64,000 nt of DNA from Sphingobium naphthae (GTDB taxonomy: Bacteria > Pseudomonadota > Alphaproteobacteria > Sphingomonadales > Sphingomonadaceae), in the NCBI RefSeq assembly GCF_020782235.1, contig NZ_JAJGNO010000005.1:62001-126000 (forward strand), read 5' to 3'. Position numbers and translations under genes: made by a program. Numbering within the stretch: position 1 is the stretch's first letter; the number at the start of each line of letters is the position of its first letter. The notes under the pieces were generated by a model that saw only the letters and a list, made by a program, of their open reading frames with translations, was not told the origin of the DNA and searched no databases. Shown in pieces: positions 34,596 through 60,861 of this stretch.

Positions 34596-35446
34596 GGTCT
34601 CGTTGACAAAGTGGATTCCCAATCTGCCTGATTTCTGATTCACAGCTTCTCTTTGCGAGGAGCGATGATGAGCCGCGGCGATCTGACGGACGAGGAATGG
34701 GATGTGATCGCGGGGCTTCTGCCGTCGGAGCGCGGCCGCAAGTCCCGTCCTGCCCATGACAACCGGCGTTTCCTCAACGGCATGCTGCATGTTCTGCGGG
34801 TCGGCTGTCCGTGGCGGGATATGCACGAACGCTATGGCCTGTGGAACTCGGTCTATGTGCGGTTCCGGCGCTGGGCCGAACAAGGCGTGTGGGATGCAAT
34901 CCTGGCGACATTGGTGGAATTGGGACTGACCGACGACTGGCAGCACATGATCGACAGCACCATAGTTCGCGGCCACGTATCGGCAGTGGGCGGAAAAGGG
35001 GGGCTTGTGCGCAAGCTCTTGGTCGATCACGCGGCGGCTTTACGTGCAAGGTCCACGCCCGCTGTGACAATCAGGGACGCCCTATCGGCTTCATCCTGAC
35101 CGGCGGTGAAGCGTCCGACTATGGCGCTGTCGATGCCCTGATGGCGATCCCCGTCGCCAAGCCCAAGGCGCTGCTGGCCGACAAAGGCTACGATGGTGAC
35201 GCCGTTCGCGAAAACCTGCTGATACGCGGCATCCTGCCGATCATCCCGCCCAAGGCCAATCGCCGAGAGCCCATTCCCTGCGACTTCCGCCGCTATCGTG
35301 ACCGCAACCGCATCGAGCGCATGTTCGGGCAACTCAAGCAGTTCCGCCGTGTCGCCACGCGTTACGACAAAACAGCTTTGTCCTTCGCAAGCTTCCTGAA
35401 CCTCGCGGCCATCCGCAAATGGCTGCCTCACTTTGTCAACGCGACC
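34596..35446 (+). mobile_element. IS5-family (IS427-like) insertion sequence, about 851 bp
   Basis: Imperfect terminal inverted repeats of about 18 bp with one mismatch (GGTCTCGTTGACAAAGTG at 34596; complement of CACTTTGTCAACGCGACC at 35446). TA flanks both ends, consistent with the short target duplication of this subgroup. It holds two overlapping transposase frames joined by a -1 frameshift signal. Confidence 0.85.
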
Positions 35447-35449
35447 TAA
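34665..35449 (+). CDS. IS5-family transposase made by -1 ribosomal frameshift
   Basis: Frame one starts at ATG 34665 with GAGGAG upstream (MMSRGDLTDEEWDVIAGLLP). It carries the first catalytic Asp in MIDSTIVRGH. At the run A4G6 (34994-35003) a -1 shift gives the second frame: CAQALGRSRGGFTCKVHARCD, then LLADKGYDGDAVRE with the second Asp, and RYRDRNRIERMFGQLKQFRR with the Glu. Without the shift the product is truncated near 35099. The TAA stop at 35447-35449 lies in flanking target DNA. The element looks competent. Confidence 0.88.
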
Positions 35450-37979: not shown

Positions 37980-38246
37980 ATGAAGCGCAGCAGGTTTAGC
38001 GAGGAGCAGATCATAGCGATCCTGCGGGAGCAGGAAGCTGGGTCATCGACAGCGGATGTGTGTCGCAAGCACGGCGTGAGCAGCGCGACGTTCTACAAAT
38101 GGAAGGCGAGCTATGGCGGCATGGATGTGTCGCAGGCGCGCAAGCTGAAGGTGCTGGAGGACGAGAACGCGCGGCTGAAGCGACTGCTGGCCGATGCGAT
38201 GCTCGACAATGCAGTGCTGAAGGAGGTTGCCTCAAAAAACTGGTGA
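37980..38246 (+). CDS. IS3-family OrfA (helix-turn-helix protein)
   Basis: An 88-residue protein starting [21 protein letters not shown], with the DNA-binding helix-turn-helix [20 protein letters not shown] and a leucine-zipper-like tail ([28 protein letters not shown]). GAGGACGGAG precedes the ATG. It ends just after the A6 run where a -1 shift produces the OrfAB transposase. Confidence 0.92.
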
Positions 38247-39106
38247 AGCCTGCCGCTCGCCGAAGGGCTGTCGAGGATGTTCGACAGACCTTCGGCATCA
38301 GCGAGCGTCGGGCGTGCGCCATTCTCAGCGTGGATCGATCGTCGATGCGCTATGCGCATCGGCGTAGTGATGATGGCGACCTGCGGTCGCGTCTTCGCGA
38401 GATCGCGCTCGAGCGTCGCCGGTTCGGTTACCGACGGCTGGGGATCATGCTGGCGCGCGAGGGGCTGGTCATGAACCACAAGAAGCTGCTGCGACTATAT
38501 CGCGAAGAGAACCTGCGGGTGCGTCGCCGACGTGGTCGCAAGCGCGCGATGGGCACGCGAGCACCGATGACCTTGCCGCAAGGGCCGAACCAGCGCTGGA
38601 GCCTGGACTTCGTCAGCGACACGCTGGTGTGTAGCAGGCGGATCCGCATCCTGGCCGTGGTAGATGACTTCACGCGCGAGAACCTCGCGCTGGTGGCCGA
38701 CACGTCGCTATCGGGCGCCCGTGTTGCCCGCGAACTCGATGCGATCATCGCGGCTCGCGGCAAGCCGCTGATGATCGTGAGCGACAACGGGACCGAGCTG
38801 ACCAGCCTGGCGATCCTGCGCTGGGCGCAGGACAGGCAGATCGAGTGGCATTACATCGCCCCCGGCAAGCCACAGCAGAACGGCTATTTCGAGAGCTTTA
38901 ATGGTCGCTTGCGCGACGAATGCCTGAACGAGACGCTGTTCGCGTCATTGAGCCATGCCCGCTCGGTGTTGAGCAACTGGCGCTACGATTACAACCATGT
39001 GCGGCCGCATAGCGGGATAAGCGGGCTGACGCCCGCCGATGCTGCCAGGCGGGTTGTGCAGCCCCGCCCACAAGGGCACGATGATAACCCCGGACTCCAG
39101 TTATGA
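38234..39106 (+). CDS. IS3-family OrfB transposase (integrase core)
   Basis: The catalytic half, read by -1 frameshift at A6 (38234-38239), continuing [28 protein letters not shown] in pieces. The DDE residues sit in [18 protein letters not shown] and [17 protein letters not shown]. The C terminus has [19 protein letters not shown], standard for this family. No premature stop, so the element seems functional. Confidence 0.92.
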
Positions 39107-39366: not shown

Positions 39367-39780
39367 ATGTCGCGTAATATCGCGGCTTCCGAAGCTGATG
39401 AGCCGTTGCTCTCCTACGTTAAGGAGCTCTCAGGTAAACGCATCGAGCTTGCACGGAAGCGGGAGGGGCTGACGCAACGCGAGCTTGCCCGGGCACTGGG
39501 CATGGGTGTTCGTTGGCTGCGAGAAATCGAGTCTGGCAACCCGAAGTCGAAGTTGGATGACCATCTTCGTTGCACATATCATTTGTGCCTTTCCACCGGC
39601 CATATCCTCATTCCGCTGCTCTACCTTGGACAGAATATGTCTTACCCATTCCAGCTGGCTGCGGGTGATTTGCAGGAGTTGGAGCGACTATGTGTTGAGG
39701 TCATTTCCGAGAGGAGCCTGTCAAAGCTGACGCGACAGTTAACGCCGAGATGGCGAACAGCTCCCGTAGGTGCCGGCTGA
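39367..39780 (+). CDS. XRE-type helix-turn-helix regulator of the lasso locus
   Basis: A 137-residue protein with an N-terminal XRE DNA-binding domain (KRIELARKREGLTQRELARALGMGVRWLREIESGNPKSK in pieces, residues about 24-62) and a short helical C-terminal part. AAGGAGG precedes the start. Its end overlaps the GntR gene by 31 bases, and both read toward the lasso precursor, so they probably regulate it. Target unknown. Confidence 0.8.
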   Translation: MSRNIAASEADEPLLSYVKELSGKRIELARKREGLTQRELARALGMGVRWLREIESGNPKSKLDDHLRCTYHLCLSTGHILIPLLYLGQNMSYPFQLAAGDLQELERLCVEVISERSLSKLTRQLTPRWRTAPVGAG

Positions 39781-40418
39781 CAGTGGCTCCCGAACCCGCC
39801 AATCACGAACGCATCTATCGCGCGATCAAGGCCGACTACCTTGATGGTCGCTTCGTAGTCGGCCAGCGAATTGACATGACTCTGATTGCAGACCGCCATC
39901 GCGTCAGTCTGACGCCGGTTCGTGATGCTATGCATCGACTTGCAGGCGAATCCTTGGTCGAGGCTCATATCGATGGCGGATTTCGTCTGCTGGTGCCAGA
40001 TCGGGAACGGCTATTTCACTTCTACGCATGGCATGCGCATCATATCCAGTCCGCTGTCAACGCTTCCACCGAAGATGCGCTTGTGCGTACCATGTCCGAC
40101 TTCAGTGGAAATCCCATTCCGTCAAATGACCTTTTGCGCGTGCATCATGTGGGGGCATTCTTCCAGACTTTGGTAGCCGCGACCGGCAACCTTGAATTTG
40201 CCGCCGTGGTCGAGCGCAGTAATGAGCGGCTCGCTTATGTCAGATTGGCCGAAATGGCGTACTTTCGTCGAGCGGACCGGGAGATTGCTCAACTGGTCAA
40301 TCCAGTTGCAAACAACGTCCATTTGAACCTGAGACGTCGCCTGTGGAGCTACCATCGACGTCGAATTGAACATGTGGCGGCAATTTCGGCGCGCTTGAGT
40401 GGACCATCAACGGATTGA
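39750..40418 (+). CDS. GntR-family regulator of the lasso locus
   Basis: A 222-residue regulator. The winged helix is HERIYRAIKADYLDGRFVVGQRIDMTLIADRHRVSLTPVRDAMHRLAGESLVE in pieces (residues about 19-70), with SLTPVRDAMHRLAGE as the recognition region. An all-helical effector-binding domain of FadR/FCD type follows. It starts inside the XRE gene, so the two are translationally coupled. The effector may be a sugar or acid, or the lasso product itself; nothing visible decides this. Confidence 0.8.
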   Translation: MANSSRRCRLTVAPEPANHERIYRAIKADYLDGRFVVGQRIDMTLIADRHRVSLTPVRDAMHRLAGESLVEAHIDGGFRLLVPDRERLFHFYAWHAHHIQSAVNASTEDALVRTMSDFSGNPIPSNDLLRVHHVGAFFQTLVAATGNLEFAAVVERSNERLAYVRLAEMAYFRRADREIAQLVNPVANNVHLNLRRRLWSYHRRRIEHVAAISARLSGPSTD

Positions 40419-40570
40419 AATCAGGCTGGCTATGCGCTTCACCGTCGATTTGCGAGATATGCCCATAAATATGTGTCGCCTGGGCCAGCTTATATATGAA
40501 CGAGTACGGGTTAGCATGCGGATACAATCCTCGATGTCGCAACATCGCGACGCAATATGAGGAATGTATC
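40419..40570 (+). promoter_or_regulatory. Leader region of the lasso precursor gene with inverted repeat
   Basis: About 150 bases between the GntR gene and the precursor. At 40532-40547 CGATGT-CGCA-ACATCG is a 6-bp inverted repeat, a possible operator, about 24 bases upstream of the precursor ATG. GAGGA about eight bases before 40571 is the ribosome site. The stretch near 40440-40500 is AT-richer and likely holds the promoter. Confidence 0.45.
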
Positions 40571-40702
40571 ATGCAGAATGAAATCGAACAGAATGTCGAT
40601 GTCATCGACCTCGGTGCCGCCTCTATCGTGACCCAGGGCGGAAATCCGGAACCCGGCAGCGACCTGCCCGCATTCCAGCGCCAGATCGGCATCGAAGACT
40701 GA
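40571..40702 (+). CDS. Lasso peptide precursor (A gene)
   Basis: A 43-residue peptide starting MQNEIEQNVDVIDLGAAS. The leader would end IVTQ, putting the conserved Thr (T21) at position -2, as required in lasso leaders. The core of 21 residues begins at G23: GGNPEPGSD, then tail LPAFQRQIGIED. Gly1 and Asp9 are ideally placed for a 9-residue macrolactam ring; the tail has Phe, Gln and Arg as possible plugs. B and C genes follow at once. Length and layout match isopeptidase-associated lasso precursors. I do not recognise the core as a known peptide. Confidence 0.88.
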   Translation: MQNEIEQNVDVIDLGAASIVTQGGNPEPGSDLPAFQRQIGIED

Positions 40703-40712
40703 ACCTCTGGCT

Positions 40713-40740
40713 CGGCGAGCTTTGCGCTCGCCGGGCTTTT
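40713..40740 (+). terminator. Hairpin between lasso A and B (attenuator or partial terminator)
   Basis: CGGCGAGC, loop TTTGC, GCTCGCCG form an 8-bp stem (40713-40733) followed by GGCTTTTCT. It lies 10 bases after the precursor stop and before the B gene. Partial termination here would give far more precursor than enzyme message. Confidence 0.7.
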
Positions 40741-40752
40741 CTGGGGGTGCTT

Positions 40753-41370
40753 ATGTATTATCAGCTCACCGAAACCTTGAGTTGTTGCTTGGTTGAAGAG
40801 TACTGGGTCTTCTTGGATTGCGTGGCGGACCGGTACTTCGCCATACAAGCAAAGGGCCTTCAATCTGGCGCTCCTGACCTTGCCAATCCCGCGTTCAGAT
40901 CATGCGCCTTGTCCAATTTCCGGGCTGATGCGCTGACGCCGGTCATAGTGAGTGGTCCCAGGGTCAAACTGGATACGGGGAAAGGGCCTCGAGATCTGAG
41001 ATCCTGTCTGGCAGCCTATATTTGCCTCGTTCGCGCTTTCCTGATGCGATCCGGCCATTTTGCAAAATTCGAAGCGATTTCGGGCAAGGCTCGGCACCGC
41101 ATTCAAGCCCTCGAACCGAAGGCATCGCTTGAACAATCTGTACGGTCGTTCGAGGCAGTCATGCGCTGGTTGCCTGTTGAAAACCAATGTCTGCCGCAGG
41201 CTCTGGCTTTGCAGGAATTTCTGGTGTCGGCCGGGCACGATGCGATGGTTGTGGTGGGCGTCGCTATCAACCCCTTCAAAGCGCACTGCTGGGTCCAGAA
41301 TGGCGACCACGTGTTGTTGCAGGCGCCTGAGTTCGTGCGTGGATATTACCCCATACGCGTGTTCCGATGA
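40753..41370 (+). CDS. Lasso peptide B protein (leader-binding plus leader peptidase, fused)
   Basis: A 205-residue protein from ATG 40753. The N-terminal 60 residues (YYQLTETLSCCLVEEYWVFLDCVADRYFAI) look like the RRE leader-recognition domain (B1). The C-terminal half is the transglutaminase-like cysteine protease (B2) with C146 (NQCLPQALALQEFL), H178 (FKAHCWVQ) and D185 (NGDHVLL). It removes the leader at the Thr-Gln/Gly junction. Split B1 and B2 genes are usual in Firmicutes and actinobacteria; the fused form is typical of proteobacteria. Its stop overlaps the C gene by four bases. Confidence 0.9.
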   Translation: MYYQLTETLSCCLVEEYWVFLDCVADRYFAIQAKGLQSGAPDLANPAFRSCALSNFRADALTPVIVSGPRVKLDTGKGPRDLRSCLAAYICLVRAFLMRSGHFAKFEAISGKARHRIQALEPKASLEQSVRSFEAVMRWLPVENQCLPQALALQEFLVSAGHDAMVVVGVAINPFKAHCWVQNGDHVLLQAPEFVRGYYPIRVFR

Positions 41371-43118
41371 GCAGGAGCTATCTTCTGCTCATCGGCTCGG
41401 CAATCGACAACCAAAGGGATATTGCGCTCACCTTGGGACTTCCCATTCCAGAGGGCCTTGACCTCGCCTTTGAGACGGCGGGCATCAGAGCTTATGCATC
41501 CCGTCTGGAAACGAATAGGCTTGCGGGCGACGTTGGAATTGTCCTGGGAGCATGTGAAATGAAACATGTCCCAGCAAGTGCCTTCGATGGATCTGCAGCG
41601 GCAGCTTCCCAAATGACTGACATATTAAGCGCCGGCACCGCCCCTCAGCAGCTGTGGGGCTCATTCATATGCTGCTACTCTCACCAGGGGCAAATCACCA
41701 CATATCGTTCACCCTTTTCCACTTTGCCGGCGTTCTGGAGGCGATGCGGAAGTTTCATTGCGGTTTCAGACGATGCCCGTCTGCTGAGAAAGATCGTGCC
41801 ATCTCTTTCATTGGATGAGAGGCATCTGATCGAATCGATGATCGCCGACTGGCAGCCGTCATCACAGACTTCAATTGCTGGTCTCAGGTCGCTCAAATCG
41901 GGTGAGGCCCTGATCGTCACGCCTGCTGAGATAATATGTCAACAGCTGTGGGATCCGATACAATATGCGCAGGCAAGTGCGATATCGAACCCGGAAGAGG
42001 CAGTCGAATTGCTGCGCCGGCATGTGAAGCGATCCATCTCCTTTGAGGTTCGACGCCCAGGGAGAATCCTGCTCGACTATTCGGGAGGTCTGGATTCATC
42101 GTTGATTGCAAGTATCCTTGCAGACCTCGCTCATCCATTTACGGCTATAAATTACCATTTTGGTCAAGGGATTGGCGATGAACGAAATTACGCTCTCGAA
42201 GCAATGGACTATCTTGGCGGCGAACTGATCGAACAGAAGCTCGATCCGGGGCAAGTGGAGCTCGACAGATCGGCCGCAGCAAGCCTCCCTCATCCCTATA
42301 GGCGCGCATTTGTGCAGGGTGTCGATCGAGCCGCCCTTGAAACTGGATACAAGTTGGGGGCTTCCAGGTCCCTGAATGGAGCCGGAGGCGATAATGTTTT
42401 CGCGCACCTGCAAAGTTCTGCTCCTTTGGCAGATGCGCTTCGGCATTTTGGGCCCGGCATCTTCTCTCTTCGCGTCGCAAGGGACATTGCGGACGCGGCG
42501 GATGCATCGGTCACCCATGTTGTGAAGCAGGGGATGCTCAAGGCCCTTGGATTCTCGCGCCGGACAGTCCGAAGGGATTTCCAGTTTTTGTCGGAGGAAG
42601 TCAGGCAGGTGGCAATCGCCCAGCCGCAGGGCAGGGGGAACAAGTCGGTATCGAGGCTTGGTCATGGGAAGCATGAGCACCTAATGATGATAAGGGATGC
42701 CGAATTTCATCTTCTTGGCTTTGACCGTGGTGACGCACTGGAAATGTCCTTTCCCCTGCTGGCGCAACCCCTGATCGAAACCTGCCTCCGCATTCCAAGC
42801 TGGATGTGGGTCCGGAACGGAATTAACCGGTCACTCATTCGTGAAGCCTTTTCGAAAGAGCTCCCGCCTTCGATCCAGCGAAGAGGATCGAAAGGAGGGC
42901 ATACAGACTATCAATATGCAGTCTTTCGTCATCATCGAGTCAAAGCCAGGGAATTGCTTATGGACGGTCATCTGGCCGGGATGGCTATTCTCGATCGTGC
43001 GGCTATCGAGGTGGCATTCCGCGACATGATCCGAATGGAGGTGGGCACAGTCTCGCGCCTGATGCGTCTCATCGATTATGAGGCCTGGCTTTCGGCATGG
43101 CGAGGTGGAAATGTGTGA
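41367..43118 (+). CDS. Lasso peptide macrolactam synthetase (C protein, asparagine synthetase-like)
   Basis: A 583-residue enzyme that adenylates the ring Asp/Glu and forms the bond to Gly1. The PP-loop is SGGLDSS at 239-245 (LLDYSGGLDSSLIAS); GAGGDNVF at 338-345 is the second pyrophosphate contact. The N terminus keeps the asparagine-synthetase fold but lacks the glutaminase Cys2 (it starts MSRSYLL), as expected for lasso cyclases. The C terminus has RRGSKGGHTDYQY. ATGA coupling to B. It ends 17 bases from the convergent isopeptidase gene. Confidence 0.93.
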   Translation: MSRSYLLLIGSAIDNQRDIALTLGLPIPEGLDLAFETAGIRAYASRLETNRLAGDVGIVLGACEMKHVPASAFDGSAAAASQMTDILSAGTAPQQLWGSFICCYSHQGQITTYRSPFSTLPAFWRRCGSFIAVSDDARLLRKIVPSLSLDERHLIESMIADWQPSSQTSIAGLRSLKSGEALIVTPAEIICQQLWDPIQYAQASAISNPEEAVELLRRHVKRSISFEVRRPGRILLDYSGGLDSSLIASILADLAHPFTAINYHFGQGIGDERNYALEAMDYLGGELIEQKLDPGQVELDRSAAASLPHPYRRAFVQGVDRAALETGYKLGASRSLNGAGGDNVFAHLQSSAPLADALRHFGPGIFSLRVARDIADAADASVTHVVKQGMLKALGFSRRTVRRDFQFLSEEVRQVAIAQPQGRGNKSVSRLGHGKHEHLMMIRDAEFHLLGFDRGDALEMSFPLLAQPLIETCLRIPSWMWVRNGINRSLIREAFSKELPPSIQRRGSKGGHTDYQYAVFRHHRVKARELLMDGHLAGMAILDRAAIEVAFRDMIRMEVGTVSRLMRLIDYEAWLSAWRGGNV

Positions 43119-43135
43119 CATTCCCACCAGGACCA

Positions 43136-45193
43136 TTACCGGCTGGGCTGAGTTGGACAGGCAGGCAGAGCGCCGTCCCTCCAGCGCCTTAGCCAGTCAA
43201 TATTCCGGTCATAAATTGCGAGCCGATGGGCCGGCTGCGTCTTGATATGCTCTTCATTTGCAAAGACATAGAACTCAATTGGATAACGATATTGCCGCCA
43301 GGTCTCATAAGTTGAGAGCGCGAGGCGGAACTCGGAGTCGGCCGCTTGAATGAGCAACGGCACACAGCGTGGCGGCGTGGCAAGCGCCAGTGCGTTTCGT
43401 CGCCAGTAGGGGATGTTGGCGATTGCGGGCAGGGGGACCTGTTCCCGGTCCCGTTCGTCCCGATATTGTGAACCAAGCCCGGCTTCGGTGTAGAATGGAT
43501 CTTCGCAGCAGGTGCTCAGAATGCCGGTTGAAAACCGTGTCGATGTCGAGAGCGCGTAAGTTGCGGTCGAGGCGCCGTCGCTTAGCCCGGTAATAGCCGC
43601 CCGCTCGTCTGTGACGCCCATGGACGCCACCAGATCCATCCCACGAAACAGAGCTGACTGCACGCTCTCCCGGTCGCGCCAACCAGATACATAGTCCTTG
43701 GGAATTTCGCGGCCCTGCTCCCGCATATATTCAGCCAGATCCCGGGGGCGATTGAAACTCAGAACAGCAAAGCCTGCCGCGGCTATGGCTATGATGGGAT
43801 ATTCATCACCTGTAGCGCCCTTGAGGAAGCCTCGCGTGACATATTGGACGACCACTAGAGGAAGCTTCTGGCTACCGGCGTCCTGCCGAGGAAGAACGAG
43901 ATCGCCGAAGCAGTCCTGTCCTTCTGCATTCTTCCAGTGCAGCCGCTCGACTTTCACCAGATTGTCGAAGCCGCTATCTGGATTCGGATCGTAAAGGTCC
44001 GAGACCTTTCCGCTTTCGATCTCGATGGAGACGATATGACGGGGGCGAAGCGAGGCTTCGCGTGCGCAGGCGATCCGGTCACCCATGGGCGCGCAGCCCA
44101 GAAGCTGGTCGCTGCTGCGATGAATAGTTCTTGGGCGGTCGGTGCCTGGCGCCCAACCCAGGATTGCATATTCGCTGCGAGCAAAGCCAAGCATTGTCAC
44201 GAGAATGAATTGGCCCGTTCGCTCGTCAGCCCACGCCTTCAGGATTTGACCACATGTTTCCGTGGGGCAAACTGTTACCGATCCATCCGCCATCTTGAGC
44301 GACAGCGGTGAGCTTGCTCCGCCCGCCTGGGTCAGCTGGGCTGATCGCAGGCTGAGGGCCAGTGGAAAGCGCGGGCGATTGCGGGAAATGGCGGTGGCCG
44401 GAAGGCCATTTTCGATCAGTCGTGGTCCGTGCGGGGAATTAATCCGATGTTCCCATATCGAGATCGGTCGTGCAGTCGCTGGATACGGAGTGCTCGACGA
44501 AAGCGGCCAGAAGCGGCCGTCATATTTAAAGCCCGCTCTGAGCTCTTCGTCTCCGTGGTTATCGACCGGGGTCGAGACAAGATAGCGCAATTCCTTTGAG
44601 TCGCCTGACCAGGAAAATTCATCGATATCGCCTGTGCTGTTTTTGATGGTCCGGACGGCACTGCTGTCCGGATAGACAATCCGCAATCCGCTTTTGCCTT
44701 GTGATCCCCAAAGATAGGCGATGGCCTTCCCATCCGGAGACCAGACCGGTGCATTCTCGATGCCGCTTCCGCTAGGAAGATCATGTAGCTTCCCTCGGTC
44801 CAGTCGCGCCGTGATCAGATCGCCGCCCACGTCGACAAATCGGGACTTCCCGGAGGTCACATCGATGACTGCCAGCCCCTGGCAATAGCGATTGGTGCGA
44901 GTATTCGCACGTCGGATCAGGGCAGCGATCAGCTTACCGGACGGCGACACGCTGAATTGTGCCGCCGCTGGCGACAATCCTTCCGTTCCGATGAGTCGCA
45001 GTGAGACGAGACGCTCCGTAAGTGACGTACCCGTGGGATCGCCTTCATCGTTGGCCAGATATGCCCGGCAGTTGATCTGGCCACGATCATTTTCCACGGA
45101 TTGAGATTTCGCCCAAGCCGTTGAAGTGAGAAGGGACAGGCCGAACAAGACGGTCCATCCCGTCCAGCGGCAAATATAGCTTGGCATGGGCAT
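43136..45193 (-). CDS. Lasso peptide isopeptidase (Atxe2-like, S9 family)
   Basis: A 685-residue exported enzyme that opens the lasso ring. Signal peptide at residues about 12-28 (ending AWAKS). A beta-propeller (about 60-420) precedes the alpha/beta-hydrolase domain. Catalytic residues: S538 (GLSDGAST), D619 (QAADSEF), H649 (NEEHI). The propeller-plus-hydrolase layout and the link to a lasso cluster identify the Atxe2 type. It is translationally coupled (TGATG) to the TonB receptor upstream, so uptake and opening are paired. Confidence 0.9.
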   Translation of the reverse strand: MPMPSYICRWTGWTVLFGLSLLTSTAWAKSQSVENDRGQINCRAYLANDEGDPTGTSLTERLVSLRLIGTEGLSPAAAQFSVSPSGKLIAALIRRANTRTNRYCQGLAVIDVTSGKSRFVDVGGDLITARLDRGKLHDLPSGSGIENAPVWSPDGKAIAYLWGSQGKSGLRIVYPDSSAVRTIKNSTGDIDEFSWSGDSKELRYLVSTPVDNHGDEELRAGFKYDGRFWPLSSSTPYPATARPISIWEHRINSPHGPRLIENGLPATAISRNRPRFPLALSLRSAQLTQAGGASSPLSLKMADGSVTVCPTETCGQILKAWADERTGQFILVTMLGFARSEYAILGWAPGTDRPRTIHRSSDQLLGCAPMGDRIACAREASLRPRHIVSIEIESGKVSDLYDPNPDSGFDNLVKVERLHWKNAEGQDCFGDLVLPRQDAGSQKLPLVVVQYVTRGFLKGATGDEYPIIAIAAAGFAVLSFNRPRDLAEYMREQGREIPKDYVSGWRDRESVQSALFRGMDLVASMGVTDERAAITGLSDGASTATYALSTSTRFSTGILSTCCEDPFYTEAGLGSQYRDERDREQVPLPAIANIPYWRRNALALATPPRCVPLLIQAADSEFRLALSTYETWRQYRYPIEFYVFANEEHIKTQPAHRLAIYDRNIDWLRRWRDGALPACPTQPSR

Positions 45194-47751
45194 CAGAAAT
45201 CGACCGTGACCGCAGCCGAGACGGTGCGGCCTATCCCGGAATAATTGGTGGAGTCATAATTGGGCAGATAGATGATGCCTGAAACCTCGCTGATGGGAGG
45301 CGGCAATTGATTGAGAAGGTTCTGGGCCGACAAGCGAAAGGTGATATGTTTTGCCAGGCCAGCGGTCGGGCCGAAATATATCTCACTCGACACATCGACG
45401 GTGGTCATTGACCGACCCTTGATGATGGCATCCGTCCGTACATCATCCACGCCATCAATGTAATTCACATAACCGTTGACGCTTGCCTGTTCTGAGCTCC
45501 AGCCCAGAGAGGCACGCGCCTTGAAACTCGCAGGGTTGAAGGCTGTCCCTGCAATCTTCACGGACTGATCAGAGCCCGTTATCCGCCGCGAACTTTTGAG
45601 CCAGGTCGCCGAGACGGTCGTTGACAGGGTGCCCCCCTGCAACGGCTGGGCGTAACTCACACTGGCGTCCAGTCCGCTGATATCTTGACGGGCAGCGTTC
45701 AGGTAGGAATCGTCGATAAGGGCCACCACGCTGGATGGATCGAACGAAGTGCCGGTTCCCACCCCGTTGTAGAACTGATGATCTCCCGACAGGAAGGCTT
45801 CGATTTGGGCCGCCGTGGGATTGAGCGTGATGAACGGCTGATAGGCCGGGTTTGTCAGACCGGTTGCGCGGCTGGCGATGGGGGTGGTTACCCGGTCCTT
45901 GTAGCGGATATCGAAATAGCTGACATTGAGGTTCAGGCCCGGCAACGGGGTCCAGTCGGCGCCGACTTGCCAGTTCGTTGCGCGCTCTGGCCCCAGATCC
46001 GAATTGCCACCCGAACTCGTCAATATGGTCGATCCGGCAGGAAAGCCGGTGCCGCCATAGGAAAAGGGGGGCAGGAGATTGCGATAGGAGACGGCGTGGA
46101 GCTGGTACAGGGTCGGCGCCTTGAATGACTTGCCCCAGCTTGCCGACAGGCGCAGGGCATCGGTTGGCCTCACAGACACGCTCAGCTTGGGGGTAAAAAT
46201 CTCGTCAATGCCGCGATAGCGCTCATATCGGCCGGCCAGATTAAGGCTTAGAAGTTCGTCCATACCCTCGTTGCGATTGAGGAGCGGGACTTCCAACTCG
46301 CCGTAACCATAGACGACATTCTGCTCGCCGATGACGGGCGATGAGGAGCCATAGCGAAATTGATTGCCGCGCCAGCCTCCGCCAATGGCCGCTTTCAATG
46401 GCCCTGCGGGTAGGTCGACCAACTCCCCCGATATGCCAGCCTCTCCAACGATCACTCTGTTCAACGAAGCCGACCGACCATTGTAAGCGACCACGCCTCC
46501 AACGAAATCCCTTTGCTGTGAGTTCGTTCTTTCTTCTGAGAAGGTGGTCAGAAGGGTCGCTTCCCACCGATCGGTGAGGGGAACGTCAAGCTGGCCGGAT
46601 GCCGCATAGGTATCGGTATCGGCATCTGAGCGAGAGGTTCGCCCCGCATATGTGAATAGCGTCTGCTGCTCTCGGCGATTATAGACACCATCGACTTTGA
46701 GGGTGCCGAACCCAAGGTTCTGATGCCCCGAAAGAACGACAGAATGGCGCCTCTGGCCCGGCAGCAGAGTATAGGGCGCATTCAGGTAGGACAGAAATGG
46801 ACGGCTCGACGCATATACCGGATTATCCTTGCCATAGTCATAAGTGACCACGAACCCGCCGTCAGACCATCGGCTTCCTGTAACTATACCATATTGCTGC
46901 TGGAACCCGCCGCCCTCCGTGGTGGCGGATAGCCGCGATGAAAGGCTGACACCGGAATAATCGGGTTGGAGAATGATGTTGACGACGCCAGCCACGGCGT
47001 CCGATCCATAAATGGCAGACCCACCGTCAGTCATGACTTCGATCCGCGATACCGCAGCAAGCGGTATGGCGGAAATATCGACGGACTGAGCAAAGTTGCC
47101 GTAGCTCAAACGATGGCCATTCAGCAGCGTCAGGGTGGCATCCGGGCCGAGCCCGCGCAGATTGGCCGCTGAAGAGCCATTTATATTCTGATTGGCTCCG
47201 TTCCCCATGACATTTGCGCCAAACGCCACGGTCGGGTTCTGACCACCCCCGTAATTTTGTGGCAGTGAGCGGAGCGCTTCACCAAGATTGCTTTGCCCGG
47301 CCTTGAGCATTTCCTGCCGGCTGATCGTGACGCCGGGGGACGAGCGCACTCCCCTGATGCGCGACCCTGTCACCATGATCTCGCTGGACTGGAGGTCACC
47401 CGACTGGCCTATTTCCTGGCGGACCGATGTTTCTCGCCCCCGAATGAGAGCGCCTTCACTTGTGAACTCGACAATCAGATCGGTGCCTCGGAGGAGCTGA
47501 CGTATTGCGTCTTCGAACCGGAAATTTCCCTCGAGGCGAGGCGCAGTGCGCCCCGCCACGAGGTCGCTTGGGACCATAATCTCGCGACCCGACTGGGCTC
47601 CAAGCGAACGCAGGGCCGCGTCAAGGGACGGCTCCTGGATATCATAGTGCCGGGATTGACCGGACTGCGCCTGCGCGTCCAGGCAGAAGCCCGTAGCAAT
47701 GATGGTGGCGCCAAGAAGCATTTCCCGCCGAAGCGAGCTCCAAATCTTCAT
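45193..47751 (-). CDS. TonB-dependent receptor with N-terminal signalling (STN) domain
   Basis: An 852-residue outer-membrane receptor. A signal peptide ends LDAQAQ. An STN domain (about residues 35-105: YDIQEPSLDAALRSLGAQSGREIMV, LEGNFRFEDAIRQLL) contacts FecR. The plug has GSRIRGVRSSPGVTISRQEML and MTDGGSAIYGSDAVAGVVNIIL. The 22-strand barrel ends GIGRTVSAAVTVDF with terminal Phe. It lies between the isopeptidase and fecR, so its ligand is probably the lasso peptide itself. In similar clusters it is thought to import lasso peptide for degradation; a siderophore is an alternative. Confidence 0.9.
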   Translation of the reverse strand: MKIWSSLRREMLLGATIIATGFCLDAQAQSGQSRHYDIQEPSLDAALRSLGAQSGREIMVPSDLVAGRTAPRLEGNFRFEDAIRQLLRGTDLIVEFTSEGALIRGRETSVRQEIGQSGDLQSSEIMVTGSRIRGVRSSPGVTISRQEMLKAGQSNLGEALRSLPQNYGGGQNPTVAFGANVMGNGANQNINGSSAANLRGLGPDATLTLLNGHRLSYGNFAQSVDISAIPLAAVSRIEVMTDGGSAIYGSDAVAGVVNIILQPDYSGVSLSSRLSATTEGGGFQQQYGIVTGSRWSDGGFVVTYDYGKDNPVYASSRPFLSYLNAPYTLLPGQRRHSVVLSGHQNLGFGTLKVDGVYNRREQQTLFTYAGRTSRSDADTDTYAASGQLDVPLTDRWEATLLTTFSEERTNSQQRDFVGGVVAYNGRSASLNRVIVGEAGISGELVDLPAGPLKAAIGGGWRGNQFRYGSSSPVIGEQNVVYGYGELEVPLLNRNEGMDELLSLNLAGRYERYRGIDEIFTPKLSVSVRPTDALRLSASWGKSFKAPTLYQLHAVSYRNLLPPFSYGGTGFPAGSTILTSSGGNSDLGPERATNWQVGADWTPLPGLNLNVSYFDIRYKDRVTTPIASRATGLTNPAYQPFITLNPTAAQIEAFLSGDHQFYNGVGTGTSFDPSSVVALIDDSYLNAARQDISGLDASVSYAQPLQGGTLSTTVSATWLKSSRRITGSDQSVKIAGTAFNPASFKARASLGWSSEQASVNGYVNYIDGVDDVRTDAIIKGRSMTTVDVSSEIYFGPTAGLAKHITFRLSAQNLLNQLPPPISEVSGIIYLPNYDSTNYSGIGRTVSAAVTVDF

Positions 47752-47851: not shown

Positions 47852-48862
47852 TTATTGTGGGTCGGCCTCGGGCGTCAGCAGGATGTTGCCTTGCAGCGTG
47901 TTCTGCTTCTGGAGGTCGAACAAAGTCGCAAGCTTGTCGGACAGAAGTTGGGGATCATCGATGCGGAAGACCCCTGATATCCGCCGTTCCTGAAGTGCCT
48001 TGCCTTCAAGCTCGATCTGCTGCTTTCCACCCTGATTGGCGAGAGAGACGAGGTCAGCCAGGCGAACGGCAACAAAAGTGCGCGCGGCAGGCGTGGCGAG
48101 CGGGGAGGGCGTTCCATTCTCAAGCGACATCCTCGTCGAGGCGATTGCAAAGGAAATGCTCTGGCCGGGCACGAGATGAGCTACTTGCGGCATGTTGCTG
48201 CCCTGCGCAGGTGCGGGCATACGCACCGCGACCGATCCCCGAGCAAGATGGACGTCGATCTTCGCATCCTTCACCGCCACCTCAAAGATTGTGCCGAGCG
48301 CCGTCACGCTGCCACCGCCCGCGTACACCGTGAATGTGCGTCCGTCATGGGCCACTTCAAACCGTCCATGGCCCTTCTCGAGACGAAGATTGCGGCGATT
48401 GCGATCCATCTTCACCATGAGCGATGAATGGGGCCATAGCTTGATTTCCGAGCCGTCGCTCAGCCTGAAAGCCTCGATCTTGCCAAGTGCCACGTAGCGC
48501 CTTGCTCCAGTGTCGTCCCCAGGCCGATCGACCAGAGCATGCGGCGTATCGCTACGGGGCAGATCAAGGATGATCATGCTGCTGCACCCTATGGCGATCC
48601 CGGCAATTACCAGGGCTGCTGCCAACATGCGGGCCCGGCTCCGCTTCCTGCGCTTCGCGGACTGCTCCTCGGCAAGATGCTTGCCCATGCTGAATATCTC
48701 GGCGACACGGTTATAGGCGCCAAGGTGGACCGCGCCGCGGTTCAGCCAGCGTTCGAACTCCTCGCGATGAAGCTCCGCGTCGGGGCCGCGCATCCGAGCA
48801 AACCAGGTCGAGGCTTCCTTGCGAAGCTGGCCGCCGGTCGAAATTTCGTCACCTTCAGTCAT
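47852..48862 (-). CDS. FecR-type anti-sigma regulator
   Basis: A 336-residue inner-membrane protein. The cytoplasmic N terminus has the FecR/DUF4880 text WFARMRGPDAELHREEFERWLNRGAVHLGAYNRV. A membrane helix lies at about residues 78-98. The periplasmic FecR domain includes GEIEAFRLSDGSEIKLWPHSSL-like text, then GHGRFEVAHDGRTFTVYAGGGSVTALGTIFEV in pieces. A secretin/STN-like end (ISGVFRIDDPQLLSDKL) could meet the receptor. It overlaps fecI by eight bases. It would relay receptor occupancy to the sigma factor. Confidence 0.9.
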   Translation of the reverse strand: MTEGDEISTGGQLRKEASTWFARMRGPDAELHREEFERWLNRGAVHLGAYNRVAEIFSMGKHLAEEQSAKRRKRSRARMLAAALVIAGIAIGCSSMIILDLPRSDTPHALVDRPGDDTGARRYVALGKIEAFRLSDGSEIKLWPHSSLMVKMDRNRRNLRLEKGHGRFEVAHDGRTFTVYAGGGSVTALGTIFEVAVKDAKIDVHLARGSVAVRMPAPAQGSNMPQVAHLVPGQSISFAIASTRMSLENGTPSPLATPAARTFVAVRLADLVSLANQGGKQQIELEGKALQERRISGVFRIDDPQLLSDKLATLFDLQKQNTLQGNILLTPEADPQ

Positions 48863-49400
48863 CGGGGTAGAGAGCCTTGTCTATTTGCTGCAGCGCCTTG
48901 GCAATGTGCCATTCAACGGTGCGGACGCTGATGCCCAGCCGTTCGGCAATATCCCGGTAGCTGAGCTCCTCGAGCCTGTGCAGCTTGAACACTTCCCTGG
49001 TTCGCGGAGGGAGGGCCGCAACCGCCTGCTTGAACAACATTATCATGTCGGCAGCTTCCAATGCGTAGCTCTGTTCTGCAGGGACGGGCAGCAGCTCAGC
49101 ATATTCGATAGGAAGATGGGGTCCCGCAGGCGCCCGGCGTCTCCGGTCAACAAGAAGATTCTCCACGATCCGCCGCAGATAGGCGCGCGGGTCAAGAACA
49201 CGCCCCAGTATGAACGTTCGTGTGAGGCGCTCGAATGCCTCCTGGACGAGATCATTGGCCTCGTCGCGGCTTCTTATGCGCCAGCGAACGTAGCGGGCAA
49301 GTCGGGGCGCTTCGTTCCGGTATATCTCTTCCACAAGCCGGGCGTTGCGCGGAAGCTCCTTGGCTTGCGAGCATAGAGATCCATCTTCCGGGGACCTCAT
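48855..49400 (-). CDS. FecI-type ECF sigma factor
   Basis: A sigma-70 extracytoplasmic-function factor of about 181 residues if ATG 49400 is used; a TTG at 49475 would add 25. Region 2 is YRNEAPRLARYVRWRIRSRDEANDLVQEAFERL in pieces; region 4 is LPPRTREVFKLHRLEELSYRDIAERLGISVRTVEWHIAKAL in pieces. No strong ribosome site decides the start. With FecR and the STN receptor it completes a cell-surface signalling set that likely controls the receptor and isopeptidase. Confidence 0.88.
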   Translation of the reverse strand: MRSPEDGSLCSQAKELPRNARLVEEIYRNEAPRLARYVRWRIRSRDEANDLVQEAFERLTRTFILGRVLDPRAYLRRIVENLLVDRRRRAPAGPHLPIEYAELLPVPAEQSYALEAADMIMLFKQAVAALPPRTREVFKLHRLEELSYRDIAERLGISVRTVEWHIAKALQQIDKALYPDD

Positions 49401-50026
49401 GTCGAAACGGCCCGAGCCATGCAGCTGGTCTGCAAAGGCGATAAGGTAGGACAGGGCAAGCCGAGACTCCTTCAAGCCGGCAGACGACCGCCCGTTTCAC
49501 ACGGAATGTACGTAAGGGGATGCGTACGACCTCAACTGCGGCAAGAGCCGGTCAATCTTCAGCCATATTCACTCGACCCGCATGGTCGAATGTATTTGAT
49601 GCCCGGAAGGATAATCCTGCAGAAGCCGAGCCGGTCTCTCCCCTGCGCCAAGCAGCCTGCATTTTCCGCATCGGTTGCGCAAGCCAGATTTGCTCTATCG
49701 CCATATAGTCTGTCGCAAGAGAGTTGCTGACCGATAAAGTCTGAGGGCATAGCTCCCATCGGCATGGTTGGGGCTCCGCCAGGATGCTCTCATTCCGGTC
49801 CACGGTAGTCTGTCAGTGCGATAGGTTGCCGGACCTTCCCCCCGCCGCTGGCAGAACGGATCGAGTTCAACAGACATTGTGCGGATTTGGCGCTCCCTTT
49901 CAGCAGGAGCGTTGCAAGCCAGCTTTCAATCGTTGCGCAGCATTTGTTCTGTTTGAGCGGTTAGGACAAGACGACAACGCGCAAACGCACTATGGCAACC
50001 TTCCCCTGAAGGAGGCCTCGTCTGCC
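49401..50026. other. About 600 bases without a gene, between fecI and the OLD-type gene
   Basis: This holds the fecI promoter (minus strand) and the leader of the defence operon (plus strand). The OLD frame is open upstream to 49784 on the plus strand but without ribosome site or family sequence. I see no tRNA-like or repeat structure; short frames on both strands look like chance. Confidence 0.4.
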
Positions 50027-52081
50027 GTGAATATCAAGACGCTGAAGCTTTGGAATTTCCGTGCCTTTTCGTCCTCTGATCCATTGATGGAGGTGTTTGA
50101 CGGACCCTATCCGGTCACCGTTGATCTTGCGGCAGACACCACCGTCTTCATTGGCCGGAATGGCACCGGCAAGAGCGCTTTCCTGCAGGCCCTCCTGAGG
50201 CTCTTTGGGGAAACGCGCGACGAGCGTTCGATCCAGCCTGCCGACTTCTTCGTCGAGCCTGGTGGACGGCTCGAAAGCAAGGCGAAGCGCGAACTCTTCA
50301 TCGAAGCGATCATCGCCTTTTCCGAGCTCGCCCAAGGAGGGGGGGCTGCCGAGAAGACAGTGCCCTCTGTTTTCAAGCATATGATTGTCACCGCGCCTGG
50401 CGAGACGCCCTATGCGCGGGTTCGCCTTGAGGCGAGCTGGGAACTGGGAGGAACGCTCGACGGGGTCATCGAAGAGCGGATGTACTGGATACTGACGACC
50501 GATGACGTGCCTCTCGGCGAACATGACCCCTCGATCAAGAAAAGGGTCACAGCCGGCGAACGCAGCAACATCGCGGTTCGCTATATTCCTGCATCACGGG
50601 ACGTCACAGCACTTACGCAGCTCGCCGTTCGCAGTCTCGGTCGAAGTCTGATGAATGCAGTGGTCTGGCAGAGCAAGGATGACATTACCCGGCTGATCCA
50701 GGATGCTGCCGACAAGCTGGACGCAGAGGCCGCACTGGACCGGGTCAACAAGGCGATCAACAATTGCTGGGGTGAACTCAATACCGCGGAAACCGGCACG
50801 AATGCCAAACTGACCGTCCTGCCGCCAGACCTCCAGCAGATCATCCGCGCTGCAAGCATCCAGCTGACACCTTCCTCTCTCGGGCGCACGATGGCGGTCG
50901 AGGAATTGAGCGACGGGCAGCGTTCGCTATTCCATTTTGCCCTTGTGAAGGCGCTGCTCGACCTGAAGCTCGAGCTTGAGGCAGAAATAGAGGGGACGAA
51001 TAAACCGCCCTTCGATGAAAAATTCGCGCGCGCGCCGGCGCTGACGTTATTCGCCTTCGAGGAACCGGAAAATCACCTGGCTCCCTATTTTCTTGCGCGG
51101 CTGTTGACCCAGCTTGAAAAGCTTACGGGTACGACCCGGGTCCAAGGCGTGATTACAAGTCATGCGCCCGCTATCGTAGGTCGCGTCGAACCCGGCGCAA
51201 TTCGCCATATCCGAAGATCCACCGCAACCGGAATGTCGAGCATATCGGCGCTCACCCTTCCGCCCACTGGGACCGAGGCGGCGAAGTTCGTCCGCGAGGC
51301 CGTGCGCGCGCATCCGGAAATCTATTTTGCCCGGCACGCGATATTCGGTGAAGGCGCATCCGAGGAGATCGTCCTCCCCTGGATCGCGGAAAAGCTCGGC
51401 GTGCCGATCGATCGCTCGTTCGTGGCGATCGTGCCGATCGGCGGGCGCCATATCCAGCATTTCTGGCGCCTTGTGGAGCAGCTCGGCATACCGCACACGA
51501 CTTTGCTCGATCTGGACCTTGGGCGAAGCAGCGGCGATCTTGTGACCTTCAAGACGGTCGCCGAGGCGCTGCTGGAAAGAGGAGGGGGCACTGAACGGCA
51601 AAGTGCCGGCCTCAAGAACGCCGCTTCATTCACACGCGGAAAATGGCTCGAAGATGGTTTCACGCTGGATGATATTCTGGCCTGGAAGAGCTGGTTCGAG
51701 GAGTTTGGCGTGTTCATGTCTGCCGAACTAGATCTTGATATGCTGATGCTCCAGGCCTTTCCTGCAGCATACAAAACCCCGCCTCAGGGCGCGCGCGGCC
51801 CCCGCAATCCGGACGATCCGGACGTCATCAGCAAGGCAGCCAAAGAAGTGGTTGGCGATGAAGGATATGGCGTCGCGCCCTATGAAGGGCGTGAAGTACA
51901 CGCGCTTTTTGCATGGTATAAATATCTGTTCCTGGGAAGCCGGGGCAAGCCGGCAGCCCATCTTCTGGCGCTGGGCATTCTCGAGGCCGATGAGAATGTG
52001 AATTATCAGATGCAGACGCCACAGGTACTGCGGGACCTGGTTGCCCATGTGAGCTTGAAGCTCGAGGAAGGCATCGCATGA
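50027..52081 (+). CDS. OLD-family ATPase with TOPRIM nuclease (GajA-like)
   Basis: A 684-residue protein from GTG 50027, with AAGGAGG 11 bases before and an N terminus MNIKTLKLWNFRAF typical of OLD/RecF ATPases. Walker A FIGRNGTGKS (41-50), ABC signature LSDGQRS (294-300), Walker B LFAFEEPENH (341-350) and the switch SHAP (378-381). The TOPRIM domain follows with E442 (GEGASEE) and DLD (495-497). OLD TOPRIM proteins are DNA nucleases. The UvrD-like gene overlaps its stop, so this is the nuclease half of a class 2 OLD or Gabija-type pair. It is longer than the best-known GajA (about 580). Confidence 0.88.
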   Translation: MNIKTLKLWNFRAFSSSDPLMEVFDGPYPVTVDLAADTTVFIGRNGTGKSAFLQALLRLFGETRDERSIQPADFFVEPGGRLESKAKRELFIEAIIAFSELAQGGGAAEKTVPSVFKHMIVTAPGETPYARVRLEASWELGGTLDGVIEERMYWILTTDDVPLGEHDPSIKKRVTAGERSNIAVRYIPASRDVTALTQLAVRSLGRSLMNAVVWQSKDDITRLIQDAADKLDAEAALDRVNKAINNCWGELNTAETGTNAKLTVLPPDLQQIIRAASIQLTPSSLGRTMAVEELSDGQRSLFHFALVKALLDLKLELEAEIEGTNKPPFDEKFARAPALTLFAFEEPENHLAPYFLARLLTQLEKLTGTTRVQGVITSHAPAIVGRVEPGAIRHIRRSTATGMSSISALTLPPTGTEAAKFVREAVRAHPEIYFARHAIFGEGASEEIVLPWIAEKLGVPIDRSFVAIVPIGGRHIQHFWRLVEQLGIPHTTLLDLDLGRSSGDLVTFKTVAEALLERGGGTERQSAGLKNAASFTRGKWLEDGFTLDDILAWKSWFEEFGVFMSAELDLDMLMLQAFPAAYKTPPQGARGPRNPDDPDVISKAAKEVVGDEGYGVAPYEGREVHALFAWYKYLFLGSRGKPAAHLLALGILEADENVNYQMQTPQVLRDLVAHVSLKLEEGIA

Positions 52082-54009
52082 TCTCTCCACACCAATGGAA
52101 ACCGGTCGGCGTCGATTCCCTTGAACAGGCCGCGCTGGATGCTGTCCGGTCCGAAGGCAGTTCTCTCGTCGCTGCCGGCCCTGGTACTGGCAAGACCGAA
52201 TTGCTCGGTCAGCGGGCAGCCTATCTCCTTCAGACCGGTCTGTGCCGCTATCCGCGCCGTATTCTTGCCATCAGCTTCAAGCGGGACGCTGCGACGAACC
52301 TGCGGGACCGCGTGGCGGCCCGCAGTGGACCCGAAGCGGTGCGCCAGCTTGATTCGATGACTTTCGATGCCTTTGCAAAGCAGTTGCTCGATCGATTCTG
52401 GCGTGCCTTGCCGCCTCCCTGGACACTGGCTGGCGGTTACAGGATAGGCGCGACCTATCCAGTCCGGCAGGGCTTCAGCAGCTTCCAGCATGAAGTTGCC
52501 GATAATCTGACGGATCAGCTGACACCAGCAGGATGGTCCGCGGCGCAGCTATCCTTCTTACCGAAACCTCAAAGCATCCATGGCATGAATTTTGAGGAAT
52601 ATGGCTTTGGTATCCAGCGCCTGGTGCTGCATCCCCTGTCCGTGCCCGACGCGAAAGCCTTCATGCAGCTTGTCGCGCTGCGCCGGGGGCTTATCTCCAA
52701 CCCGCCAGCCTTGACCTTTCCGCAGATCGGCTGCCTTGCGACCGCCATAATCGCTGCCAATCCTGCTATTCGCGAGGGGCTTCGTGCGACCTATAGTCAT
52801 GTCTTTCTCGATGAATTTCAGGACACCACCTCGGTTCAATATGGCCTGGTGAAGGCGATCTTCGAGGATGCAGACAGCGTGCTCACCGCTGTGGGCGATG
52901 CAAAGCAGCGGATCATGGTATGGGCCGGCGCGCAGAAAAATGTCTTCGATGCGTTCGAGAAGGACTTCCTGAGGACGCCCCAAGCGCTCGGGCAGCTCAC
53001 GCTGACGCGAAACTATCGCAGCAATGAGAGGATCGTGCGTATCCTCAACAGCCTCAAGCGACGGATTGCGCCGACCGAGCCCGACTTCGTCGCCGTCAGG
53101 AAGGCGCCCGATCTGCCGGACAGTGACATATTCTCGCTGCTCGTCGCCGCAAACCAGCAGGCCGAGGCCAATGCGGTGGCCGCTCTTGTCGCCAAGGCCA
53201 TTGCGGAAAAGACGGATCCCAGGAGCATTGGCCTTCTGGTTCGCCAGCAGGCGCAGAACTGGCAGGATAGACTTCAGCAGGCATTTGACACGGCGCGCGT
53301 CCCTTTCCGAAACGAAGACCGCAATCTTGGCGGCGGGACGATCCAGGACCTCATGACCGAGATTTACTCGCGGGTCATCGTGGCCATCATTGCCTTTGCC
53401 ACGCGAAAATATGCTGGTCCGCTCTGGACGATCGCCTTGGGGCATTTTGCCGTGGCCCAGGGGATCGACATTGAAGATGACGAAAGCGCTGAGCGCGCAC
53501 TGGCGCTGAGGGTCGATGCATTTCATCAGGCCAATCGCCTCGACGAGAATGCCAAGCCCGACGAACTTCAGGTTCGGCACATGATCGCGAGCATCGAGAA
53601 GGAACTTGGTCTGGACCGGATGCGCGCCATGGCACCCCAATATGCCGTCGGTGACTTTTTCGAGAATATTAGAAAGGCAACGGCCGAATTTCTGGTAGAA
53701 TGTACCAACTCGACATCCTCCTGGAAGGAAGCGATCGACCGCTATCGCGGCGTCGGACAGGTGCCATTACTCACCATCACCAAGAGCAAGGGACTGGAAT
53801 ATGATCTGGTCGTCCTGCTGGGGCTTAATGACGAACAATGGTGGAGTTTCGATCGTGACGTGGAGGAAGGGCATTCGCTCTTCTTCGTAGCGGCCTCGCG
53901 TGCTCGCGAGCGCCTGGTTCTCACGCGCTGCGGCAGCGATCGAAAAAGCAAGATCGACGAAATCTTCTCCTTGCTGAATGAAGCCGGGATCATCGAGCAG
54001 CATGTCTGA
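52078..54009 (+). CDS. UvrD/Rep-type SF1 helicase (GajB-like)
   Basis: A 643-residue helicase starting in an ATGA overlap with the nuclease gene. Motifs in order: Walker A AAGPGTGKT (32-40), Ia ISFKRDAATNLRDRV, Walker B VFLDEFQDT (242-250), III AVGDAKQRIMVWAGA, IV LTRNYRSNERIV, V TITKSKGLEYDLVVLLG, VI FFVAASRARERLVLT. All key residues are present, so it is probably active. GajB in described Gabija is about 490 residues. In Gabija it is proposed to act with GajA in antiphage cutting; that role here is inferred. Confidence 0.88.
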   Translation: MISPHQWKPVGVDSLEQAALDAVRSEGSSLVAAGPGTGKTELLGQRAAYLLQTGLCRYPRRILAISFKRDAATNLRDRVAARSGPEAVRQLDSMTFDAFAKQLLDRFWRALPPPWTLAGGYRIGATYPVRQGFSSFQHEVADNLTDQLTPAGWSAAQLSFLPKPQSIHGMNFEEYGFGIQRLVLHPLSVPDAKAFMQLVALRRGLISNPPALTFPQIGCLATAIIAANPAIREGLRATYSHVFLDEFQDTTSVQYGLVKAIFEDADSVLTAVGDAKQRIMVWAGAQKNVFDAFEKDFLRTPQALGQLTLTRNYRSNERIVRILNSLKRRIAPTEPDFVAVRKAPDLPDSDIFSLLVAANQQAEANAVAALVAKAIAEKTDPRSIGLLVRQQAQNWQDRLQQAFDTARVPFRNEDRNLGGGTIQDLMTEIYSRVIVAIIAFATRKYAGPLWTIALGHFAVAQGIDIEDDESAERALALRVDAFHQANRLDENAKPDELQVRHMIASIEKELGLDRMRAMAPQYAVGDFFENIRKATAEFLVECTNSTSSWKEAIDRYRGVGQVPLLTITKSKGLEYDLVVLLGLNDEQWWSFDRDVEEGHSLFFVAASRARERLVLTRCGSDRKSKIDEIFSLLNEAGIIEQHV

Positions 54010-59254: not shown

Positions 59255-59259
59255 TAATT

Positions 59260-59274
59260 ATACCTCCAGAGTAT
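59260..59274. promoter_or_regulatory. ATAC-N7-GTAT site between the LysR gene and catB
   Basis: ATAC-CTCCAGA-GTAT lies six bases upstream of the regulator's start and 88 bases upstream of catB. This is the classical position for activation of catB and autorepression of the regulator. Confidence 0.75.
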
Positions 59275-59361
59275 CATCAATGAACCGCATTGATCTTTGA
59301 ATCAATCTTGGCTGCGGAGTAGCCATCCGGTGAAACGTAAGCAATTGGGAGAGTCGCCGCA

Positions 59362-60534: not shown

Positions 60535-60539
60535 ATTCC

Positions 60540-60830: not shown

Positions 60831-60861
60831 TCACCAGCCCGCAAGCATAGGAGAGAAAAAT

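Follow-up and report, generated by a model that had tools for sequence, protein, structure and literature searches.

Lasso peptide clusters that encode an isopeptidase typically carry a GntR-family regulator gene before the precursor gene, and a receptor gene with sigma factor and FecR genes downstream of the isopeptidase gene (PMC9266682; this and the other papers given by PMC number are cited for their accessible parts). The work on astexins, benenodins and sphingopyxins summarised there supplies the analogues for how such a cluster would operate, and the biological role of these peptides is called enigmatic in the same source. Here we analyse a cluster of this kind in a window of 64,000 nucleotides from Sphingobium naphthae (assembly GCF_020782235.1, contig NZ_JAJGNO010000005.1, positions 62,001 to 126,000 of the forward strand; coordinates below are those of the window), which is part of a 354-kb contig in a genome of 4.28 Mb. 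The cluster is complete and ordinary, and of the isopeptidase type (astexin/benenodin/subterisin) that is common in relatives. Its core peptide seems new; the family is known.

The cluster and its closest relatives

The precursor gene A (40571..40702, forward strand) begins with an ATG at 40571, has a stop codon that ends at 40702 and encodes 43 residues (MQNEIEQNVDVIDLGAASIVTQGGNPEPGSDLPAFQRQIGIED), of which 22 form the predicted leader (MQNEIEQNVDVIDLGAASIVTQ) and 21 the predicted core (GGNPEPGSDLPAFQRQIGIED; G1 G2 N3 P4 E5 P6 G7 S8 D9 L10 P11 A12 F13 Q14 R15 Q16 I17 G18 I19 E20 D21). Thr stands at leader position -2, Gly at core position 1, and Asp9 is the sole acid among core positions 7-9. 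Over residues 1-43 the precursor matches the NCBIfam benenodin model NF033522 at 42.3 bits (cut-off 33, E 5e-11) and the Pfam Subterisin model PF24178 at 41 bits (cut-off 27, E 1.9e-10); since both family models score above their cut-offs, the resemblance exceeds chance. A sequence-only reading of this stretch had described a lasso precursor of 43 residues with Thr at -2, a 21-residue core, Asp9, two prolines in the ring and a 12-residue tail, and each of these features can be read from the gene, the ring prolines being Pro4 and Pro6. The Gly1-Asp9 ring that it predicted is supported by the profile matches, by the intact key residues and by the absence of another acid at positions 7-9, and a lasso peptide with this predicted ring is the best reading of the gene. 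However, its possible plugs Phe14, Gln15 and Arg16 were numbered one too high and are in fact Phe13, Gln14 and Arg15. Two of the related loci compared below (L083 and L088) have cores (GAIAGEPSDGVGYRLNGMADE) that resemble the window's in their length of 21 residues, in Asp9 and in a three-residue loop that leads to an aromatic residue at 13, which makes Phe13 one of the plug candidates.

The enzymes B (40747..41370, 207 residues) and C (41367..43118, 583 residues) are encoded on the forward strand directly 3' of A. The same reading had placed them correctly but took them to be fused; a fused B-C protein is ruled out by two separate open reading frames (ORFs) that share 4 bases. If a fusion of B1 and B2 was meant, B comprises 207 residues with its B2 match at residues 91-205, and its N-terminal part has no profile match. 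B is a transglutaminase-like leader peptidase (NF033537, 72.1 bits, cut-off 33; PF13471, 68 bits, cut-off 26) in which Cys148 and His180 are invariant among 40 aligned proteins (39 relatives and the window's, as also for C and E). Its residues 1-90 gave no NCBIfam or Pfam match, and Asp24, Arg29 and Tyr30 in this part are kept in 97-100% of the alignment; a leader-binding domain (RRE) is presumed to lie there. C is an asparagine-synthetase-like lasso cyclase (Pfam Asn_synthase PF00733, 87.7 bits, cut-off 21) with an SGGxDSS motif at 239-245, of which Ser245 is present in 97% and the other motif residues in all of the aligned proteins. A search of PDB sequences with B returned a single match at E 0.81, which we attribute to chance, and one with C returned nothing at 0.001.

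The isopeptidase E (43136..45193, reverse strand) scores 562.4 bits against the Atxe2-family model NF033523 (cut-off 400). Its residues 59-674 align with chains 5txc and 5txe of AtxE2 from the astexin-2/-3 cluster of Asticcacaulis excentricus, an alignment of 616 residues in which the key residues match, and the serine that differs between the two chains aligns with Ser538. Glu621 and His649 would correspond to the rest of the AtxE2 triad. Ser538 and His649 occur in all aligned isopeptidases and Glu621 in 97%; cysteines 309, 314, 367 and 376 are kept in the alignment as well, which would fit a periplasmic enzyme. The triad is named as Ser-His-Glu/Asp, with no positions given, in the accessible part of PMC9266682. 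From the conservation of their sequences, B, C and E look functional.

The sequence-only reading had the cluster span 40571..43118, and this interval does hold A, B and C, but half of the cluster lies outside it. Convergent to A-B-C, on the reverse strand, E is followed by genes for a TonB-dependent receptor with plug and barrel (45193..47751; PF00593 and PF07715 over cut-off), a FecR-type anti-sigma regulator (47852..48862; PF04773 and PF16220 over cut-off) and an ECF (FecI-type) sigma factor (48855..49475; PF08281 and PF04542 over cut-off, TIGR02937 at 89.4 bits against a cut-off of 42.9); signal-like segments can be made out by eye at the N-termini of E and the receptor. Upstream of A, on the forward strand, lies a regulator pair: an XRE-type helix-turn-helix (HTH) protein (39367..39780; HTH_31 and HTH_3 over cut-off) and a GntR-family protein (39750..40418; PF00392, 37.8 bits, cut-off 27).

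We compared this layout with 40 loci, picked by homology to C from 105 non-self matches with flanking DNA, and took a tblastn match to a protein of the window as presence of the gene. On this measure B is present in 40, E in 39, the receptor in 39, the sigma factor in 38, FecR in 35, GntR in 31 (the match in L080 being distant) and XRE in 25. All eight genes were found in 21 loci, and in 40 of 40 the order and orientation of the genes found are identical. Since the genes found keep this layout throughout and PMC9266682 describes it, it is usual for the kind; the astexin-2/-3 cluster, being of the type described there, shares it too. A match to C (E<=1e-30) occurs in 54 of 94 genomes of the genus, and one to the isopeptidase (E<=1e-60) in 53 of 247 genomes, own genome included in both counts; the best other isopeptidase shows 40% identity with at most four candidates scored per genome. 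The own genome holds one precursor match and one C match. Two loci deviate: L087 has lasso A-B-C and GntR, and its isopeptidase, receptor, FecR and sigma genes gave no tblastn match within 8.5 kb downstream, and in L074 B and C are present and no pattern-fitting precursor was found upstream. Among the eight cluster genes the XRE regulator has the highest identity to relatives (38-75% where matched, up to 75% in L095 and L099; B 25-47% over the matched part). It may respond to a shared signal or bind a shared DNA site; of the two regulators, GntR alone is named in the accessible part of PMC9266682.

The nearest precursor found outside the window is a sister (P0002), 91% identical, with an identical tail (DLPAFQRQIGIED) and two ring changes (GGSTEPGSD versus GGNPEPGSD). 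The nearest other C (P0004, Sphingobium yanoikuyae) is 76% identical and the nearest other E (P0108) 72% identical; the three proteins were found separately and need not belong to one cluster. Scans of genome contigs for the sister cluster found no locus with C only and one distant locus with the C pair (L111, at 33%); viral contigs held none, and no near-identical plasmid DNA was found. The cluster on plasmid pCHQ1 of Sphingobium indicum UT26S (L109) has HTH, GntR, precursor, B and C, then TonB receptor, FecR and sigma, as in the window, and likewise adjoins F-type conjugation genes. Its isopeptidase is missing from an incomplete gene table, yet is encoded in the DNA (tblastn, 35% over 634 residues). 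Its core (GMGSGSTDQNGQPKNLIGGISDD, which we take to be sphingonodin II) differs from the window's and has its first acid at 8. Benenodin and subterisin precursors (NF033522, PF24178) have in common with the window's the leader pattern, Thr at -2, Gly1 and an acidic C-terminal end, but their core sequence differs, with the acid usually at 8 in the genus sample versus 9 here. The astexin core differs as well: its ring has nine residues as here, and its loop before the aromatic residue, five residues, looks longer than the three-residue loop here; a Ser10-Gln14 loop is named for astexin in PMC9266682. With Thr at -2 and an acid somewhere in 7-9 as conditions, a pattern search recovered a precursor from 39 of the 40 compared loci, with 33 distinct cores.

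The core struck the sequence-only reading as new, and this holds within the searches made here. None of the 39 relatives' precursors contains that core; a protein search, weak for so short a query, returned two candidates, the window's own sequence and the 91% sister; and no solved chain among PDB sequences and no paper text in PMC contained it. A plasmid tblastn gave no match either, a weak negative since benenodin precursors known in that collection went unreported. A new core is nonetheless routine here, because the 39 precursors of relatives already comprise 33 distinct ones.

Proposed mode of action and its competitors

We consider it highly probable that this is an isopeptidase-type cluster of the astexin, benenodin and subterisin kind that works as set out below, because the precursor exceeds two family cut-offs, the key residues of B, C and E are conserved, the gene layout is kept and, within core positions 7-9, an acid occurs at 9 only. 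The genes and their intact key residues are read directly from the DNA, and the steps are modelled on characterised relatives. The precursor would be made from its own regulated promoter and probably at a higher level than B and C, since a terminator-like hairpin with a T run lies between A and B (40709..40742, forward strand; the fold of 40703-40746 has -26.5 kcal/mol) and may lower B-C expression relative to A. B would bind the leader and cut after Gln22, between VTQ and GG, as the family and the motif suggest. C would then activate Asp9 and join it to the Gly1 amine around a pre-threaded tail, giving a nine-residue ring; one bulky residue of Phe13-Arg15 would lock the tail (LPAFQRQIGIED) in place, and the calculated monoisotopic mass is 2178.034. 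The peptide would be exported without a cluster-encoded ABC transporter. The TonB receptor may re-import it, with an STN-like domain signalling through FecR and the ECF sigma factor, as the FecA-type architecture suggests; the signalling logic of FecA, FecR and FecI underlies this step. The isopeptidase, probably periplasmic, would finally open the ring.

Several points weigh against this proposal. The peptide is a predicted product. The relatives mostly carry the ring acid at 8: of the 39 precursors found, 27 have it at 8 only, five at 7 and 8, four at 8 and 9, and three at 9 only (L083, L088, L100), counts that depend on the conditions of the pattern search (Thr at -2, an acid within 7-9). 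The compared loci were, moreover, chosen by homology to C. The STN domain of the receptor (PF07660) scores 25.2 bits, under its cut-off of 28.4; the N-terminal part of B matches no family model, so that its leader-binding function is presumed; and C falls far under the NCBIfam lasso-cyclase cut-offs (55.9 of 525 and 79.4 of 300).

It is possible that the peptide is instead secreted against competitors, as microcin J25 and capistruin are. Lasso peptides are best known as a class for antimicrobial activity, and the receptor could serve self-uptake. However, a Pfam scan of the nine genes of 39.4-49.5 kb and of seven ORFs of 33.3-39.1 kb found no ABC transporter domain, so the D gene, the ABC transporter gene of microcin J25-type clusters, is missing from the genes scanned, and the isopeptidase and FecI/FecR half is present in its stead. 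The known peptides from isopeptidase clusters also lack such activity, except for astexin-1 with its narrow spectrum (PMC9266682). We therefore hold an antimicrobial function to be improbable, and place just after it a role in aromatic-compound utilisation, the proposal made for sphingocin from Sphingomonas BPH. There, phenanthrene use was lost when Tn5 interrupted the B gene of a cluster that also encodes an isopeptidase and a TonB receptor (PMC11006600), and in the window genes for benzoate dioxygenase, a catechol dioxygenase-like protein and muconate cycloisomerase lie at 59.4-63.7 kb. Yet a stretch of about 10 kb, which holds a Gabija pair among other genes, separates them from the cluster, and nothing in this analysis ties the benzoate and catechol genes to the lasso cluster. 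The sphingocin core (GPGFINNDGVGGKLPFAGLSDD) differs from the window's, and the accessible part of PMC11006600 gives no mechanism and shows no complementation.

Perhaps the cluster has decayed, among insertion sequences, to a remnant that yields no product. Transposase genes do stand just upstream, one with an rve integrase core (38060-39106; IS3-like by eye) and one with DDE_Tnp_1 (34811-35449; IS5-like by eye), and the region resembles a mobile replicon. But all ORFs of the cluster are open with their key residues intact, full-length relatives exist at 76% (C) and 72% (E) identity, and the 91% sister precursor retains the tail, which makes decay the least probable of the three and one to which we give very little credence.

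A predicted hairpin before the precursor start codon

The 5' untranslated region (5'UTR) of the precursor gene contains a predicted hairpin (GTCGC-AACATC-GCGAC; 40536..40551, forward strand) downstream of a putative -10 element of the precursor promoter (TACAAT, 40523..40528, forward strand; seen by eye, its position confirmed). When the 45 bases before the precursor start from 34 non-redundant clusters, the window included, were aligned without regard to structure, a conserved and covarying 5-bp hairpin emerged, with 94.1% of cells paired (87.0% in shuffles), 16 cells with two-sided changes (4.0 in shuffles) and a covariation score of 0.422 (0.280 in shuffles); 0 of 500 shuffles reached any of these values. 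A combined shuffle test gave p ~1e-14, under an assumption of independence that related sequences do not satisfy. A stem score >=14 with an end 13-24 bases from the start was found for 30 of the 34 precursors versus 16 of 61 other annotated genes, and a covariance model matched the bases just before the precursor start in three of five unused loci (L111 at E 0.027, L107 at 0.14, L108 at 0.48).

Several results argue against the hairpin, however. Two of five covariation measures are not clearly above shuffles (63 and 232 of 500), a partner slid by +3 is still 76.8% paired, and the 16 other genes pass the same test of stem and distance. Single sequences beat their own shuffles at p<0.05 in 18 of 34 cases, and the window's own p is 0.116. 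The covariance model missed L109 and L110 and gave an off-site match in L108 at E 0.43; in L110 the stem stands 29 bases from the start. In the window, an alternative 6-bp stem (CGATGT/ACATCG) overlaps the hairpin. We set aside an outer stem that would pair with the Shine-Dalgarno sequence in the window's fold, its 5' strand lying upstream of the predicted mRNA start, itself a guess.

The hairpin is possibly located at the 5' end of the precursor mRNA, because a weak TAnnnT-like pattern (~0.7 bits at three positions) occurs 8-13 bases upstream of it in the 34 upstream regions. It is tempting to propose a cis-acting RNA element not described before: a stem-loop with 5 to ~11 bp at the precursor mRNA 5' end, mostly 13-24 bases before the start, which compensatory changes maintain within the genus and which can also be seen in Novosphingobium, Caulobacter and Marinicaulis. 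Such an element might serve as a 5' cap against decay or as a regulator site and so aid an excess of the 43-codon message; we regard this proposal as tentative and rather doubtful. It may be already known, since Table 2 of PMC7549694, citing Zimmermann 2013, lists "removal of the hairpin" for astexin-1 expression, the accessible text leaving the position of that hairpin unstated. No report of a 5'UTR hairpin was found in the accessible parts of the literature searched (including PMC11006600, PMC9266682, PMC7549694, PMC13352647, PMC12670498 and PMC6092494, with most subscription papers outside coverage), and the window had no match in Rfam. Further upstream, AT-rich palindrome-like elements (CTTATAAG, ATATAT), seen by eye, precede the precursor promoter at 40430-40530 in the window and in many of the loci L065-L104; they are possible regulator sites. 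An A/T-rich block is also seen in the upstream regions at -43 to -39 from the hairpin.

Genomic setting and meaning of the cluster

Beside the sigma-factor gene lies a Gabija pair, gajA and gajB (49784-54009; PADLOC, GajA 660 bits and GajB 601 bits), in which gajA probably starts downstream of the listed ORF start because its match begins at residue 83. The benzoate and catechol degradation genes (58328-63676), with a LysR regulator recognised by eye, include muconate cycloisomerase and the benzoate dioxygenase small subunit over cut-off and, below cut-off, the catechol 1,2-dioxygenase-like protein and the benzoate dioxygenase large subunit. At the other end of the window are F-type conjugation genes (20-13756; three proteins tested, TraC- and TraB-like below cut-off and a weak TraN match), and a TrwC relaxase is encoded elsewhere on the contig; together they suggest that the contig may be a conjugative plasmid. 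No RPA replication gene was found on the contig, and two occur elsewhere in the genome. A DNA polymerase III alpha-type ORF followed by two ORFs that resemble ImuB and ImuA by eye (16707-22514) is perhaps an error-prone polymerase cassette, and a Mutator-family transposase gene lies at 24589-25812.

What the cluster adds to a large family is a core with a predicted nine-residue, two-proline ring, together with a natural ring variant that has the same tail. The question of what these peptides do is no more testable from this cluster than from the many sister clusters that the genus contains. Should the shared 5'UTR hairpin prove real, it would offer a handle on the expression of these peptides.

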